Part shown: one piece after another, positions 50,291 through 59,851 of the stretch | Layout of the letters: each line of letters starts with the position of its first letter | Numbering within the stretch: position 1 is the first letter of the stretch | Virus record (IMG/VR): IMGVR_UViG_3300046171_000185 | Span: 1-64,000 of that record | DNA: 64,000 nucleotides | Origin: a virus | Direction: 5' to 3' (one strand) | Notes under the pieces: generated by a model | The model's input: only the letters and a program-made list of their open reading frames with translations | What the model was told of the DNA's origin: nothing | Database searches by the model: none | Translations under genes and position numbers: made by a program

Positions 50291-50771
50291 ATGGCTAAAA
50301 GAAAGAGGTCAGAACACTATGTAAATAACAAAGAGTTTCTGGCAGCACTTATCAAGTATCGTGAAGATAAAGAAATTGCATTGATGAAAGATCTTCCCAA
50401 ACCTCCCATTCCACGCTACATTGGGGAGTGTTTCTTGAAGATCGCAAATCACTTGTCCTTCAAGCCAAACTTTGTGAACTACATGTTTAAGGAGGATATG
50501 ATCTCTGATGGAATCGAAAATTGCGTTCAGTACATACATAATTTTAATCCTGAGAAATCCCAGAATCCTTTTGCTTACTTTCACGCAGATCATTCATTAT
50601 GCGTTTCTCCGCAGGATCCAAAGAGAGAAGCGTCAACTAGAAATCAAGAACAAGATCATTGAACGATCTGGTTACAGTGAGGTGTTTGACGACAACAACA
50701 CCCTTGACGGATCGAACTACTCCGACTACAATCAAATCAAAGACAACGTGCATTCCAAGCTCCGCAGTTAA
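50291..50771 (+). CDS. 55: Late sigma factor gp55, one frameshift
   Basis: gp55 replaces the host sigma and, with the gp45 clamp, recognises TATAAATA late promoters. I prefer ATG 50291 (MAKRKRSEHYVNN) over the in-frame ATG at 50279. Conserved blocks are RYIGECFLKIANHLSFKPN, MISDGIENCVQYIHNF (sigma region 2 helices) and, after removing an extra T at 50,579-50,581, FAYFTQIIHYAFLRRIQ and KRQLEIKNKII. The full length is about 159 residues (T4: 185). The stop overlaps the gp47 start. Confidence 0.92.
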
Positions 50772-51812
50772 TGAAAGTTGCAATCATCACCGATCAGCAC
50801 TTTGGTGCTAGAAAGAACTCCAAGTTATTTCATGATTATTTTCTAAAGTTCTATAATGATATTTTCTTTCCTTATCTAGAGGAAAATGGTATTACTACCG
50901 TTGTAGATATGGGAGATACCTTTGATAGTCGTAAAGGTATTGATTTTTCCTCCCTTGCTTGGGCAAAGAACAATTACTATGACCGTCTTAAGGGTATGGG
51001 AATTCACGTTCACACGATTGTGGGAAATCATACAGCATACTACAAGAATACTAATGATGTAAATGCTGTTGATTTACTGCTTCGTGAATATGATAACGTG
51101 ACGGTTTATTCTGAGGCAACTAAAGCTAAATTGGATAAACTAAACGTATTGTTCATTCCGTGGATTAACAAAGAAAATGAGGAAAGCAGTTTTAAACTTA
51201 TTAAAAGTTCAGTTTGCAAAGGTCGCGCTGGGGCACCTTGAGCTCAGCGGATTTAGAGCTCATCGAGGCTGCATCATGGAAAATGGTCATGCAAGCGAGT
51301 TATATTCAAAGTTCACCAAGGTCTTCAGCGGTCACTACCACACTCGATCGGATGATGGACGGATCTATTACTTGGGAAATCCATACGAAATGTTCTGGAA
51401 CGATGTCGGTGATCGGAGAGGATTCACCATCTTTGATACAGAAACTCTTGAACATTTTCATGTAGACAATCCATACAGATTGTTTTATAATGTGTACTAT
51501 GAGGATACTCCTCATCAACTGTTTGATGCTACCGAGTATGCAAATAAAATTGTCAAGGTAATTGTCCGTCAAAAGACAAGCACCAAAGACTTTGAAAAAT
51601 TTATTGATAAACTTTATGAAGTTGGAGTTGCTGATCTTAAAATTGTAGAAAATTTTGTTCTTCAAGATCCTGAAGAATTTGAAGTCTTTGAATCGGAAGA
51701 TACTCTTTCTATCCTTGATAGGTACATTCAAGAAGCAGAAATTAATCTAGATAAACCTAAATTGCAAAATATTATGCGAATGACCTATCAAGAAGCGTGT
51801 GAATTGATTTGA
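50771..51812 (+). CDS. 47: Recombination nuclease subunit gp47 (Mre11-like), one frameshift
   Basis: gp47 is the Mre11-type nuclease of the gp46/47 complex that resects ends for recombination. Phosphoesterase motifs are present in order: DQHFGAR (residues 8-14), MGDTFDSRKG, VGNHTAYYKN, then GHLELSG and FSGHYHTRSDDG. One inserted base between about 51,190 and 51,230 splits the gene between motif III and motif IV; the two halves otherwise fit. The full length is about 346 residues (T4: 339). It lies between gp55 and a DUF3110 gene that precedes its partner gp46. Confidence 0.93.
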
Positions 51813-51813
51813 G

Positions 51814-52089
51814 ATGTATATTCTAACAATTTATGGCAAAGAAACTGACGGCGCATATTCTGTAACAGATCCTTCCGATGGAGAACAGATACTTTATCTT
51901 TTTGAAGCAGAAGATGATGCAATGAGATTTGCTATGATGTTAGAAGAAGATGGTAGTCCAACTATGCATGTTATAGAAATAGAAGATGATATAATGATAA
52001 AAACATGTGAACTTCATGACTATAGTTACACTATAATCACACCCAACGACATTGTAATTCCACCTAAGACAAATCATGATTTTATTTGA
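51814..52089 (+). CDS. DUF3110-type protein (91 aa)
   Basis: The product (MYILTIYGKETDGAYSV) carries ILYLFEAEDDAMRFAMMLEED, the segment that marks DUF3110, a small family of cyanobacteria and their phages. It has no catalytic residues that I can name. It sits between the two nuclease subunit genes, overlapping the start of gp46 by 14 bases, so it is translated with them. Whether it acts with the complex is unknown. Acidic residues dominate. Confidence 0.8.
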   Translation: MYILTIYGKETDGAYSVTDPSDGEQILYLFEAEDDAMRFAMMLEEDGSPTMHVIEIEDDIMIKTCELHDYSYTIITPNDIVIPPKTNHDFI

Positions 52090-53795
52090 AAAAATTCGTT
52101 GGAAGAACTTTCTTAGTACAGGCAATCAATTCACAGAAGTAGATTTTTTAAAACACTCCACCAATCTTATTATTGGTACAAATGGTGCTGGTAAATCTAC
52201 TATTCTTGATGCTTTAACATTTTCCCTTTTTGGAAAATCTTTTCGTAAGATTAATAAACCTCAACTCATCAATTCTGTAAATGATAAGGACTGTGTGGTT
52301 GAGGTTGAATTTTCTATTGGTGGTGTGAGTTGGAAGATTGAACGTGGAATTAAACCTGCTATATTTAAAGTTTGGAGAGATGATAATCTTTTAGATCAAG
52401 CAGCAGCTGCAGCAGATCAACAAAAATGGTTAGAGCAGAATGTTCTTAAAATGAACTACAAGTCTTTTACTCAGATTGTAATTTTGGGTAGTAGTACTTT
52501 TGTCCCTTTTCATGCAATTAACTTCTACTAATAGAAGAGATGTTATTGAAGACTTATTGGATATTCGTATTTTTTCTTCTATGAATAGTGTGATTAAAGA
52601 TAAGATTCGACTAGCCAGAGAAGATATAAAAGTTTTGGAATTGAAGAAAGAATCACTTAGCGATAAAGTTAGGATGCAAGAAAACTTTATTGATGAACTT
52701 GAGAGTCGTGGAAAAGAAAATATAAAAGACAAGGAAGATCGTATCGGCAATCTTCTTAATGAAGAGAATGAACACATGGGATCTAATGAAGAGTTGGAAA
52801 GATCCCTTATAGATGTTAATGGCAAACTTGAAAAAGTTTTCTGGTGCAACTAGTAAACTTCGTAAACTTGGTGATCTTAAAGGTAAGATTTCTAATAAAG
52901 GTAGCAACTATTACCAAGGAACATAAATTTTTCACAGGAGAATACGGTTTGTCCTACATGTGATCAGGATATTGAAGAGGACCTTCAGAATAAATAGATT
53001 AACGACGCTCAAAATAAAGCAAAAGAGTTGCAATCTGGTTATAAAGAACTAGAGGAAGGCAATTAAAGAGGAAGGAAGAGCGAGAGCGTCAATTCACAAT
53101 TCTATCTAAGGAGATTACTTCACTAACGCATGGCATTTCTCAAAACAATACTAAGATCGCTGGATGTCAAAGACAAGTCAGAGATCTGGAATCGGAAATT
53201 CAAAGAATTACCGACAACCTTGCAAACAGAAATACTGAGCATGAAAAGTTAGCAACCTTCAAAGATAATCTAAAAACTACATACGACGAACTAGCTCAAC
53301 GTAAAGAAACGATTAACTATTACGATTTCTCGTATAGTTTACTAAAGGACGGTGGAGTCAAAACTAAAATCATCAAGAAGTATCTACCGCTGATAAATCA
53401 GCAAGTCAATAAGTATCTACAACTTATGGACTTTTATATTAACTTCTCACTTGATGAGGAATTTAGTGAAACCGTCCAGTCCCCAATTCATGAAGATTTT
53501 TCTTATGCTTCTTTCAGCGAGGGAGAGAAGATGAGAATCGACTTAGCACTCTTGTTTACTTGGAGAGAAGTGGCAAGAATGAAAAATTCTGTCAATACTA
53601 ATCTATTGATTATGGATGAAGTATTTGATAGTTCTCTAGATGGATTTGGTACAGAAGAATTTCTTAAAGATTATTAAATTTGTAATTAAAGATGCAAATA
53701 TTTTTGTTATCTCACATAAAGAATCATTGCATGATAAGTTTGATAGTGTTACGAAATTTGATAAGATAAAGGGGTTTAGTAGAATAGTTGGTTAA
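52076..53795 (+). CDS. 46: Recombination nuclease ATPase gp46 (Rad50-like), many frameshifts
   Basis: gp46 is the SMC/Rad50-type ATPase partner of gp47. Walker A is GTNGAGKST (residue ~36). The coiled-coil arms flank a zinc hook CPTCDQ near 52,957. The ABC signature ASFSEGEKMRIDLAL and Walker B LLIMDEVFDSSLD lie near the end. Breaks occur near 52,515, 52,845, 52,905, 52,940, 53,058, 53,073 and 53,670, mostly extra G or A, plus an in-frame TAG at 52,995-52,997. Repaired, the last frame ends KGFSRIVG at TAA 53793-53795; length ~570 (T4: 560). Because all ATPase motifs survive, I read this as error, not a pseudogene. Confidence 0.85.
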
Positions 53796-54150: not shown

Positions 54151-54183
54151 AATACCCCTGCCGCAAGGTGGGGGTTTGGTATT
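54151..54183 (+). promoter_or_regulatory. Hairpin with GCAA tetraloop upstream of the vWA gene
   Basis: AATACC (54151-54156) can pair with GGTATT (54178-54183), enclosing an inner CCCC/GGGG stem and a CC-GCAA-GG tip. There is no T tract, so it is a poor terminator. It may be an mRNA 5' structure. The following start codon is at 54207. Confidence 0.35.
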
Positions 54184-54206: not shown

Positions 54207-56354
54207 ATGGCAATCAAACAGGAAATCAAATCTCAACTTGCCAAACTCCTTGCCACTGAAGACCTGGTGGTAGAGCATAAACAGACAGAGACTGCTTGCT
54301 TTAACGTCCATACCCGCGTTCTAACGCTTCCAATGTGGGAAAGGGCAAGCAACACCGTATATGACCTTCTGGTTGGACATGAGGTGGGTCATGCATTGTT
54401 TACCCCAGATGAGAATTGGTTGGAGAAGGTAGCAGTTCCTCCACAATTTGTAAATGTAGTTGAGGATGCACGCATTGAAAAGTTGATGAAGCGTAAATAT
54501 GCTGGCATTTCAAAAACGTTTTTTAAAGGGTATCAAGAACTAAATGACGAAGACTTCTTCTCTATTTCTGACGAGTCTATTTCTGATCTTAATCTTGCTG
54601 ATCGTGCAAATCTATACTTTAAGGTCGGTAATTTTGTAGATATTTCTTTTGACTCCGAAGAAAAGATTCTTATTCAGAAGATTGCAAAAGTAGAGACCTT
54701 TGATGAGGTATTGAAGATTGCTGAAGAACTGTATCTGTTCTGTAAAAAGGAGAAAGAAGAAAAGGTTGATGATATGCCCCCTCCTCCTGAAGTAGGTCAG
54801 GGTGGAGAATCTCAAACTCCATCTTCCCAGACTAGTTCTGGTGAGAGCGAAGGTGATTCTGATGGTGGGTCTGGTGAATCTATGACTCATGAGGAGATGC
54901 TTGAGGAAGCACAACGCCGTGAGTCTGCTGATGCTCCTCTGAATGATGAACCTGAAGTTCAGACTGCCGATTCTTTGGAATCAAATCTGCAGGACCTTGT
55001 GGATTCAAATTCAGCAGAGAATGTATATGTTGAAATTCCTCAAGTAGATCTGAAGAAAATCATTGCGGACAACTCTGAGATTCACGAAGATATTGATTCT
55101 TTCTTCTCTATTCAACAAAAGAGTGTCCCGTCTGTTGATATCTATGAACGTGTAGACACGCGGTTTGTTGAGTTCAAACGATCTGCTCAGAAAGAAGTCA
55201 ATTACCTGGTAAAAGAGTTTGAGTGCCGTAAGGCAGCAGACTCCTATGCTCGCGCTACAACCGCCCGTACAGGCGTCCTGGACACTTCTAAACTGCATAC
55301 CTACAAGTACAATGAAGACTTGTTCAAGAAGGTTTCTGTGATCCCTGATGGCAAGAATCATGGTCTGATCTTTGTCCTTGACTGGAGTGGTTCTATGAGC
55401 CGTGTGATGCTGGATACGATCAAACAACTCTACAATCTAATCTGGTTCTGTAAGAAAGTTTCCATTCCCTTTGAGGTTTATGCTTTCACTAATGAGTGGA
55501 ATCGTCCTAAGATTGACTATGAAACTCAAGAAGTAACTAAACCAATGGATTTCTCTCTTGCATATGAAGCGAAAGAAAATTTGCTTTCTGTTAGTCATGA
55601 GTTTGTAATGATGAATATTCTTACCAGTCGTATTAATGGTAAGCAACTGGAGAATCAGATGATCAATATCTGGCGTGTTGCTAACTACTTCTCTGATCAA
55701 TATATGGTTGGATATGGTATTCCTCCTCGTATGAGTTTGTCGGGTACTCCTCTGAACGAGGCATTTGTTACTCTTCATCAGATTCTTCCGAAGTTTCAAC
55801 GTGAGAACAAACTGCAAAAAGTTCAGTGTATTGTTCTGACTGATGGTGAAGCAAATCATCTCGCCCGCCACGTTGTAGTGAAAAGAGCCTGGGAGAACGA
55901 ACCTTATATGGGTAAGCGTCAACTGACTGGTGGTAATACTTTTCTTCGAGATCGTAAGACTGGTAATACTTATAAGGTTCCTTATGGTTGGCATGGTTTC
56001 TCTGATCTAATGCTTCAAAATCTTCGTGATAATTTTCCTATGGTTAACTTTGTTGGTATCCGTGTTCTTGAGAGTCGCGATGCAAATCACTTTATGAAAT
56101 TGTATTACGATCAGAACTCTAATGAGTTTCGTAAGATTCAAAGTGAGTGGAAGAAGCAGCGCAGTTGTACTATCAAGACTTCTGGTTATCATGCATACTT
56201 TGCTATGTCTGCTGCTTCTCTATCACAAGATGCAGACTTCTCTGTTGATGAAGGTGCAACAAAAGCAAAGATTAAGTCTGCTTTCATTAAGTCTCTTAAG
56301 ACTAAGAAACTAAATAAGAAAGTTCTAGGCGAATTTATCTCTCTGGTAGCATGA
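54207..56354 (+). CDS. vWA protein with HExxH metallopeptidase motif (CobT-like, 715 aa)
   Basis: I choose ATG 54207 (MAIKQEIKSQL). The N-terminal part has HEVGH at residues 58-62 followed by NVVEDARIE, the two-part zinc motif of CobT/vWA metallopeptidase-like proteins. An acidic Ser/Gly/Pro linker follows (residues ~190-260). The C-terminal part is a von Willebrand A domain with MIDAS residues in DWSGSMS (392-398), the Thr of LSGTPLNEAF, and LTDGEANH. The next large gene encodes a MoxR-type AAA+ ATPase. Cyanophage annotations call this CobT, but the HExxH and vWA parts suggest a metal-dependent chaperone or protease. The substrate is unknown. Confidence 0.85.
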   Translation: MAIKQEIKSQLAKLLATEDLVVEHKQTETACFNVHTRVLTLPMWERASNTVYDLLVGHEVGHALFTPDENWLEKVAVPPQFVNVVEDARIEKLMKRKYAGISKTFFKGYQELNDEDFFSISDESISDLNLADRANLYFKVGNFVDISFDSEEKILIQKIAKVETFDEVLKIAEELYLFCKKEKEEKVDDMPPPPEVGQGGESQTPSSQTSSGESEGDSDGGSGESMTHEEMLEEAQRRESADAPLNDEPEVQTADSLESNLQDLVDSNSAENVYVEIPQVDLKKIIADNSEIHEDIDSFFSIQQKSVPSVDIYERVDTRFVEFKRSAQKEVNYLVKEFECRKAADSYARATTARTGVLDTSKLHTYKYNEDLFKKVSVIPDGKNHGLIFVLDWSGSMSRVMLDTIKQLYNLIWFCKKVSIPFEVYAFTNEWNRPKIDYETQEVTKPMDFSLAYEAKENLLSVSHEFVMMNILTSRINGKQLENQMINIWRVANYFSDQYMVGYGIPPRMSLSGTPLNEAFVTLHQILPKFQRENKLQKVQCIVLTDGEANHLARHVVVKRAWENEPYMGKRQLTGGNTFLRDRKTGNTYKVPYGWHGFSDLMLQNLRDNFPMVNFVGIRVLESRDANHFMKLYYDQNSNEFRKIQSEWKKQRSCTIKTSGYHAYFAMSAASLSQDADFSVDEGATKAKIKSAFIKSLKTKKLNKKVLGEFISLVA

Positions 56355-56497
56355 CAAAAGAAAACTGGAAAGAAATTGCCAAAGCATCAGAAAAAGACCC
56401 TAAAGTAATTAAAATCCTTGAAGAGGGTCCTAGGTCGCTTGGTCAGGCATATCTACTTTCGGCCATGCGATATAAGTATGGACGATCTGACAAGTGA
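56351..56497 (+). CDS. Small hypothetical protein between the vWA and AAA+ genes (48 aa)
   Basis: ATG 56351 overlaps the vWA gene stop (ATGA). The product (MTKENWKEIAKASEKDPK) continues with VIKILEEGPRSLGQAYLL and ends YKYGRSDK. It is helical and charged, with no motif. Because its translation is coupled to the vWA gene and a terminator follows three bases after the pair, it may be an accessory of that protein. Confidence 0.6.
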   Translation: MTKENWKEIAKASEKDPKVIKILEEGPRSLGQAYLLSAMRYKYGRSDK

Positions 56498-56502
56498 CAC
56501 AC

Positions 56503-56526
56503 GGGGGGTTTGAGACCCCCCTTTTT
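56503..56526 (+). terminator. Intrinsic terminator after the vWA operon
   Basis: GGGGGGT and ACCCCCC form a perfect 7-base-pair stem around the loop TTGAG, followed by TTTTT. It separates the vWA pair from the AAA+ gene, which has its own promoter overlapping it. Confidence 0.93.
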
Positions 56527-56536
56527 CGTCTATAAT
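56510..56536 (+). promoter_or_regulatory. Promoter for the AAA+ gene, -35 inside the terminator
   Basis: A perfect TATAAT is at 56531-56536. The nearest -35-like sequence is TTGAGA (56510-56515), spacing 15 and so sub-optimal, which lies in the terminator loop and right arm. The AAA+ ATG follows 22 bases after the -10 box. Confidence 0.55.
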
Positions 56537-56557
56537 AACTTCAGTTAAACAAAACAA

Positions 56558-57634
56558 ATGGGTCTGTCCAAAGAAAGCATCATTGAATGTCTCCGCGAGT
56601 CCTACGGCGAGTCTGTGACTTCTGCTGAGATTAAGGCATACTGTCAGATGAATGACTTCAACTACCAGACTATCACCAATAAACTGACTGACTATAAAGT
56701 TGGCCGCGGCAAGTGGAATCTGGAAGTAACAAAGGAGACTGTGGAAGAACTTGAAGTAACTTATAATGGACCTGCAGCACTGCCTGCAGTAGAGCAAAAC
56801 CTTATCCCCACGAAAGATGATACCTTCGTCAGCTTTGGTAATTTCACAGATATTAAAAAAATTATTAAGTCCGGTCTCTTCTACCCTACGTTTATCACGG
56901 GTCTCTCGGGCAATGGCAAAACGTTTTCTGTCGAACAAGCATGTGCCCAACTCGGTCGTGAACTCATCCGAGTCAACATTACGGTAGAGACTGATGAAGA
57001 TGATCTTATTGGCGGTTTCCGTCTTGTTGGTGGAGAAACCGTTTGGCACAACGGACCAGTTATCGAAGCCCTGCAGCGGGGTGCTGTGCTGCTCCTTGAC
57101 GAGATCGACCTCGCCTCAAACAAAATCCTCTGTCTTCAGTCTATTCTCGAAGGAAAAGGAGTTTTCCTCAAGAAGATTGGCAAATGGGTTGCGCCCACAG
57201 AAGGTTTCCAAGTATTCGCCACTGCCAACACCAAAGGCAAAGGTAGCGACGACGGACGATTCATCGGAACTAACGTGCTCAACGAAGCATTCCTTGAGCG
57301 ATTCCCTGTAACCTTTGAGCAGGAGTATCCTTCTACTGCCACCGAACAGAAGATCCTTGGTAAGATCTGTAAGGATGAAGAGTTCTGCAAGCGACTTGCT
57401 GATTGGGCTGACATCATCCGTAAGACCTTCTATGATGGTGGTATCGAAGAGATCATCTCTACCCGCCGTCTGGTTCACATTGTGAAGGCATACAGCATCT
57501 TCAGTGATAAGGCAAAGGCAATTCAGGTTTGTGTAAATCGTTTCGATGATGAAACCAAGCAAGCATTCCTGGAACTGTACGACAAAGTTGATGCAGATTT
57601 CCAGATGCCAATTGACGCAGAGGTACAATCCTGA
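56558..57634 (+). CDS. cobS: MoxR-type AAA+ ATPase (CobS-like, 358 aa)
   Basis: The N-terminal ~75 residues form a small helical domain (SKESIIECLRESYGESVTS). The AAA+ core has Walker A GLSGNGKT (near 114-121), LIGGFRLVGGETVWHNGPV, Walker B AVLLLDEIDLA (near 178), sensor 1 VFATANTKGKG, the arginine-finger region NEAFLERFPVTF, and sensor 2 STRRLVHIVKAYSIF. In cyanophages this gene is called cobS, after the cobalt chelatase subunit. MoxR-type ATPases typically act with a vWA partner, and one is encoded just upstream. I infer a remodelling machine with that partner and doubt a literal role in B12 synthesis. The frame is intact. Confidence 0.88.
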   Translation: MGLSKESIIECLRESYGESVTSAEIKAYCQMNDFNYQTITNKLTDYKVGRGKWNLEVTKETVEELEVTYNGPAALPAVEQNLIPTKDDTFVSFGNFTDIKKIIKSGLFYPTFITGLSGNGKTFSVEQACAQLGRELIRVNITVETDEDDLIGGFRLVGGETVWHNGPVIEALQRGAVLLLDEIDLASNKILCLQSILEGKGVFLKKIGKWVAPTEGFQVFATANTKGKGSDDGRFIGTNVLNEAFLERFPVTFEQEYPSTATEQKILGKICKDEEFCKRLADWADIIRKTFYDGGIEEIISTRRLVHIVKAYSIFSDKAKAIQVCVNRFDDETKQAFLELYDKVDADFQMPIDAEVQS

Positions 57635-58908: not shown

Positions 58909-59851
58909 ATGCGTAATGAGTTTCTTTGGGTGGAAAAATACCGCCCTCAGACAATTGAAGACTGTATTCTCCCTGAAAGCATTAAGAAAACTTTTCAGGG
59001 TTTTTTATCTAAAGGTGAAGTACCTAACATGCTGCTTGCTGGTCCTGCAGGATGTGGTAAAACAACTGTAGCAAAAGCACTGTGTAACGAACTGGGGGTA
59101 GATGTTTATGTCATCAACGGATCCGATGAGGGACGCTTTCTTGATACGGTCAGAAATACTGCAAAAAATTTCGCTTCGACCGTCTCACTTCAAGCAACTG
59201 GCAAACACAAAGTCATCATCATCGATGAGGCTGATAACACAACAAACGACGTACAACTCTTACTTAGGGCGTTTACAGAGGAGTTTTCTGGCAACTGCAG
59301 ATTCATCTTTACCTGCAATTTCAAAAACAAAATTATCGAACCCCTCCATTCTCGTTGTGCCGTCATTGAATTTCAATTGGAGGAAAGCAAAACCTCTCAT
59401 TGCCTCGCAATTCTTCAAACGAGTACAGACCATCCTGGATACGGAGGGTATTAAATATGAGCCGAAAGTTCTTGTTGAACTCATTAACAAACATTTTCCC
59501 GATTGGAGGAGGGTCCTCAACGAATGCCAAAGGTATTCAGCAGGGGGTCAAATTGACTCAGGAATCCTAGCACATTTTTCGGACGTAAAAGTAAATGACT
59601 TGGTTAAAAAACTTAAAGACAAGGACTTCCCCGAAGTACGTAAATGGATCGTTAACAATTTGGATAACGATACTAACGTTCTCCTTCGTCGCATTTACGA
59701 TGCTTGTTATGATGCCTTGGTTCCGAATAGTGTTCCTGCTGCTGTGCTTTGTCTGGCTAAGTATCAATATCAGATGGCGTTCGTGGCGGATCAGGAAATA
59801 AACATGCTCGCTTGTCTTACAGAGATTATGGTGGAGTGTGAGTTCAAATGA
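58909..59851 (+). CDS. 44: Clamp loader large subunit gp44, one frameshift
   Basis: gp44 is the ATPase subunit that opens and loads gp45. The product starts MRNEFLWVEKYRPQTIEDC and has Walker A GPAGCGKTT (residues 45-53), Walker B VIIIDEADN, and the SRC arginine-finger motif in PLHSRCAVIEF. An extra A in AAA near 59,385 breaks the frame; repaired, it reads LEEAKPLIASQFFKRV and continues DWRRVLNECQRYSAGG to the end. The full length is about 313 residues (T4: 319). The stop overlaps the next start (ATGA). Confidence 0.95.

Follow-up and report, generated by a model that had tools for sequence, protein, structure and literature searches.

We analysed a window of 64,000 nt (the whole stretch studied here) from the IMG/VR record IMGVR_UViG_3300046171_000185, a 66,997-base fragment of a T4-like cyanophage whose nearest named relatives are the T4-like Synechococcus phages S-SM2 and Bellamy. 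The window carries a pair of genes, one for a large protein that joins an HExxH-containing domain to a vWA domain and one for a MoxR-type AAA+ ATPase, which resemble CobT and CobS, respectively. The pair is real, conserved and already catalogued, and nearly all ocean cyanophages carry it. Phage records with matches numbered 463 for the large protein (phrog_459 type) and 663 for the ATPase, and 454 and 456 at ≥80% coverage. The phrog_249 label of the ATPase is 'porphyrin biosynthesis' (cobS), and cobS belongs to the core genes of cyanophages (PMC3037559). Liu et al. (2021) described viral cobST in haloarchaeal and bacterial tailed viruses, read them as cobalamin genes, considered 'peptidase' a wrong label and suggested that host CobN is hijacked (PMC8651126). 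We found no proposal of another role for the cyanophage pair in the searchable literature. Table 1 lists the features of the locus.

Table 1. Features of the gene pair and its surroundings, with positions in the window.
Feature	Position	Strand	Details
Terminator-like hairpin	54154..54175	+	5' of the vWA gene
Zincin-vWA protein	54207..56354	+	715 aa; CobT-like; phrog_459 'peptidase'
HEVGH motif	54378..54392	+	residues 58-62, in predicted helix 49-65
NVVEDARIE motif	54453..54479	+	residues 83-91; lies in predicted helix 79-97; E86 or D87 may be the third metal ligand
Acidic/Ser/Pro linker, low confidence	54774..54956	+	residues ~190-250; typical of CobT too
vWA MIDAS motif DWSGSMS	55380..55400	+	residues 392-398
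MIDAS Thr514	55746..55748	+	in LSGTPL
MIDAS Asp546	55842..55844	+	in LTDGE
48-codon open reading frame	56351..56497	+	phrog_869; overlaps the vWA stop; optional companion
Terminator-like hairpin and T-run	56503..56521	+	between the small reading frame and the ATPase gene
MoxR (CGN clade) AAA+ ATPase	56558..57634	+	358 aa; CobS-like; phrog_249
Walker A GLSGNGKT	56900..56923	+	residues 115-122
Walker B LLLDEID	57089..57109	+	residues 178-184

The original prediction, which was made from the DNA letters, had pointed to an HEVGH...NVVEDARIE motif, an intact metal ion-dependent adhesion site (MIDAS) and a full set of AAA+ core motifs. All of these are present, conserved and under purifying selection. 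For the large protein, H58, E59, H62, N83, E86, D87 and R89 were invariant in 86 aligned relatives with identities down to ~28%, and the same was true for the MIDAS residues D392, S394, S396, T514 and D546. The pattern HExxH...NxxEDxR[IV][ED] was kept in 166/166 retrieved T4-like loci that include the N domain. A wider set (n = 15, including Klebsiella and Rhizobium relatives) had 21 invariant columns, among them H58, E59, H62, N83, E86 and D87. The ratio of nonsynonymous to synonymous substitution rates (dN/dS) of the gene was 0.08-0.16. An alternative GTG start at 54168 is possible; the relatives begin at the ATG.

The model of the large protein had a mean predicted local distance difference test score of 83 and contained a disordered linker followed by a confident vWA domain. 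In its N domain the helix with HEVGH and the helix with NVVED are predicted to take up a zincin layout; together with the invariance of the motifs, these helices provide both an HExxH in a helix and a helix for a candidate third ligand. The protein matched 0 Pfam families, hence no Pfam peptidase, and had no sequence match in the Protein Data Bank (PDB). Foldseek with the large protein returned mainly vWA proteins, and the best solved fold was the vWA domain of NorD in NorQD complexes. No known peptidase family or fold was matched by Pfam, PDB sequence comparison or Foldseek, the last of which was run with the whole protein and not with the N domain by itself. We also followed the suggested comparison with DUF2201 and rejected this relation: there was no PF13203 match at E ≤ 1, and the sole phylum-level match was a different HExxH protein below the cut-off.

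The ATPase can be assigned to the MoxR AAA+ proteins (CGN clade) by its AAA_5 domain, its CbbQ/NirQ/NorQ C-terminal domain, its complete AAA+ motifs and its fold. Both Pfam matches were above the cut-off (AAA_5 8e-17, CbbQ_C 1.6e-4). Apart from the Walker motifs we identified sensor 1 (N224), the arginine finger (R248) and the sensor-2 region (R303/R304); nearly all motif residues were invariant among 60 relatives, and the dN/dS of the gene was 0.06-0.11. The PDB sequence matches were Midasin, CobS (9ujv, E 1e-20) and NorQ (9qhd, 4e-14), and the fold matches in Foldseek were CbbQ2 (6l1q) and NorQ (9qh6), with TMt 0.83. Staphylococcus phage 812 (locus L006, 5941-7682) encodes a distant MoxR-like ATPase under the label 'porphyrin biosynthesis', and the 281-aa protein that comes next may, judged by eye, contain a degenerate vWA domain.

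The two genes are closely linked, with the ATPase gene downstream of the vWA gene within 3 kb in 148/152 loci. A vWA protein with an intact MIDAS is thus encoded beside the ATPase, as in MoxR-vWA two-component systems. The original prediction had placed a coupled 48-codon gene and a terminator/promoter between the two genes. The start of the 48-codon gene does overlap the vWA stop (ATGA), but a relative follows only 78/168 vWA genes (27/91 non-redundant), which rules it out as a conserved third component. Nothing is annotated between the pair in S-CAM1 and MED4-213, S-ShM2 has a glutaredoxin there and P-SSM2 three other genes. The hairpin between the genes is strongly terminator-like, and the annotation of S-CRM01 has a terminator at this position too, but a sigma-70-type promoter was not called in the stretch from the vWA gene to the ATPase gene, so that the promoter of the original prediction is not supported. 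S-ShM2 also has, three genes past cobS, a gene with the annotation 'ferrochelatase' (locus L094, 7935-8480). Pseudoalteromonas phage vB_Psh_XG4 (locus L003, 3685-5927) encodes the zincin and vWA halves in reading frames of their own, with the vWA half first and beside a split ATPase. A split cobT was reported in HHTV-2 by Liu et al. (PMC8651126).

We then considered the gene neighbourhood. The gene order around the pair is major head protein, UvsY, UvsW-type helicase, gp47, gp46, the pair, gp45, gp44 and gp62. In Kyanoviridae the pair adjoins endonuclease and sliding-clamp genes. In the SSU5-like, Rhizobium, Nickievirus, Stenotrophomonas and Acinetobacter elements the pair lies by DnaE, frequently together with ligase, primase or a sigma factor, and in ICP2 the pair is near a primase. 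A PADLOC defence search gave no match. Compared with S-SM2, gp47, gp46 and gp44 (window positions 50771-51812, 52076-53795 and 58909-59851) are each broken into at least two reading frames, due either to assembly or sequencing errors or to real frame breaks.

Judged by sequence comparison, both proteins are real homologues of CobS and CobT, and in this respect the suggestion that the genes are misnamed was not borne out. The homology of the ATPase to CobS is evident from the PDB match above. The vWA half of the large protein matched CobT (9uka) by profile with E 8.5e-8. The CobT families PF06213 and PF11775 were not matched by the window protein itself; both were matched by its SSU5-like relatives, and the E. 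coli and Klebsiella phage-plasmid relatives with HExxH matched the Pfam CobT N domain at 9e-27 and 2e-22, respectively, plus CobT_C. With the CobT-N profile 67/95 viral N domains scored above every reversed decoy, and the viral and CobT N domains are thus distant relatives. The acidic linker had been counted as an argument against CobT; it is a feature of CobT as well and loses this force. On the other hand HExxH was absent from all 25 verified CobTs. A CobT-like protein in a bacterial genome (G042, locus L242, 1471-3663) keeps HECGH and matches Pfam CobT at 2e-6. When the Klebsiella protein was searched against 398 genomes, the matches were confined to the vWA and linker half and were of the CobT type, and no chromosomal carriers of the HExxH form were obtained.

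The ATPase scored 64.3 bits with the CobS model TIGR01650, far below the cut-off of 558.55 bits, though it is homologous (1e-17). When 32 ATPases were placed in a tree, the 15 cellular CobS proteins all fell on one side of a 99/99 branch and the 17 viral proteins all outside; the tree is unrooted and ICP2 forms a very long branch. Going by this tree, the viral pairs were not acquired recently from the sampled CobS lineages.

Among solved machines, NorQD, CbbQ and CobST come closest to the pair. CobS-CobT (9ujv, 9uka; PF06213/PF11775) shares homologous AAA+ and vWA proteins, adjacent genes and the order of N domain, acidic linker and vWA domain, but CobT lacks the HExxH and NxxED of the phage N domain, the viral AAA+ proteins stand apart from cellular CobS and the phage pair occurs in phages whose hosts have no CobN. 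NorQ-NorD (9qhd, 9qh6) combines a CGN-type AAA+ protein with a vWA adaptor and gives the best solved fold for the vWA protein and a near-best one for the ATPase, whereas its client is another, the identity is ~11-25% and the comparison covers only the vWA part of NorD. The rubisco activase CbbQ-CbbO (6l1q) is a MoxR two-component activase with the nearest AAA+ fold by Foldseek; its client is rubisco and the likeness is drawn from CbbQ alone, not CbbO. A viral MoxR ATPase with a vWA protein is also known as p618/p892 of Acidianus two-tailed virus, which we liken by description and not by sequence and which has a role in tail development in an archaeal virus. The same two-gene arrangement is seen in viral 'cobST' (PMC8651126) and SSU5-like phage-plasmids, with HExxH in the SSU5, Klebsiella, E. 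coli and Rhizobium members, but the SSU5 and Rhizobium large proteins have only 17-18% overall identity to the window protein. With the fold nearest to NorQD and an HExxH that true CobTs lack, the description of the pair as a two-component MoxR-vWA system holds.

The hosts of related phages give another indication. The pair is present in phages of SAR11 HTCC1062 and in the phage-plasmid PhiR41_1 of E. coli K-12 MG1655. The SAR11 clade is reported to be B12-auxotrophic (PMC9296465) and E. coli K-12 has no de novo cobalamin synthesis (PMC5269720). We also found the pair in phages of Salmonella and Klebsiella, in an Acinetobacter plasmid and on a contig in the assembly of a Nonlabens xiamenensis isolate. 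A CobN-family protein was not found in this assembly and was missing from 53/60 sampled genomes of the Nonlabens xiamenensis family. The phage HTVC008M has annotated genes for a large- and a small-subunit ribonucleotide reductase. The two-subunit type of this enzyme is not known to use B12. The cyanobacterial host genomes have two CobN/ChlH genes, and there was no CobT_C match in those tested. As to the claim that no other cobalamin gene is present, there is no CobN within the 67-kb record; this covers CobN only and a fragment, not a whole phage genome. As a control we took the first 40 genomes with a CobT-type match: 31/40 had a CobN family member and 9/40 had none. In the control Caulobacter vibrioides CobT was matched (PF06213, PF11775) and CobN (PF02514) was not. 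These cases suggest that even in cells CobST-type pairs may do work that does not depend on CobN.

We consider it rather probable that the pair is a virus-specific remodelling machine of the CobST-like AAA+/vWA kind, in which a zincin-like domain binds a metal, and not a general cobaltochelatase. By analogy with NorQ, CbbQ and CobS, the MoxR/CGN protein would form a hexameric, ATP-driven ring. The large protein would dock on this ring via its C-terminal vWA/MIDAS domain and serve as substrate adaptor, as NorD and CobT do. Its zincin-like N domain, with HExxH and the E/D helix, is the probable site of metal binding and of contact with the client, and ATP hydrolysis would then remodel, metallate or process a protein of the phage or of the host, most likely one that works at the stage of phage replication or transcription. 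Such a machine would need no CobN, and true CobT would be a relative whose N domain is without the metal motif.

Several observations weigh against this interpretation. Pseudomonas phage nickie, Stenotrophomonas phage ANB28 and the Acinetobacter plasmid no longer have the HExxH. What the family has in common is thus the AAA+/vWA core, the metal site belongs to some of the clades, and catalysis is therefore not required throughout the wider family. The family is related to CobT along its length; for the cyanophage N half this link is indirect, because the direct hhalign comparison of the cyanophage alignment with 10 CobTs gave a match too weak for use and the bridge through the SSU5-like relatives is needed. 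The replication-gene neighbourhood, seen in most phage groups examined, is the sole clue to the client; it is correlative and merely suggestive, and the Gordonia locus has no annotated replication genes nearby. The argument from E. coli and SAR11 hosts rests on the literature and not on a genome search. Because 9/40 of the control genomes are without CobN, its absence alone is no proof of a viral-type role, and since the cyanobacterial host genomes have two CobN/ChlH genes, the hijacking of CobN is possible in exactly these hosts.

This last point leads to the published proposal (PMC8651126), in which the pair takes the place of the ATPase and vWA subunits in cobaltochelatase or adds to them, hijacks host CobN and raises cobalamin output. 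The homology to CobS and CobT and the availability of CobN without CobST in the cyanobacterial genomes are in line with it. However, the B12 reading of the pair is weak, since CobTs are without HExxH, which is invariant in the T4-like clade, CobS is set apart in the AAA+ tree and relatives are carried by phages whose hosts have no CobN or make no B12 de novo. The low score with the CobS model, the replication rather than metabolic gene context and the two-subunit ribonucleotide reductase of HTVC008M also speak against it, and we regard the proposal as unlikely. In this part the doubt about the CobT/CobS names was justified.

Could the pair instead be an AAA+ metalloprotease, with the ATPase unfolding clients and the HExxH domain cleaving them? 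The invariant HExxH with its conserved downstream E/D helix and the intact AAA+ motifs would fit such an enzyme. The proteolytic system suggested by the original prediction nevertheless finds no counterpart among known peptidases (Pfam, PDB sequences, DUF2201_N and the vWA-dominated fold matches), and the HExxH is lost in three related lineages; we regard it as quite improbable. A virion or assembly chaperone has a precedent in p618/p892, the viral MoxR-vWA pair for which ATPase stimulation was measured (PMC4124505). As the cyanophage pair sits with replication genes and not with tail or head genes, we think such a role very unlikely.

A broader version of the remodelling interpretation would make the viral HExxH-CobT/CobS pairs a widespread unrecognised ATP-driven, metal-dependent machine (a protease or a metal inserter) whose clients are replication proteins of the phage or the host, with CobST as a derived cellular branch from which the metal site has been lost; this we regard as doubtful. 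The core cyanophage gene cobS is often taken as a sign of viral steering of vitamin B12. If the pair is a remodelling machine, this conclusion about ecology no longer stands, and a step that is conserved in cyanophage infection would become directly testable, also in the E. coli phage-plasmid PhiR41_1.

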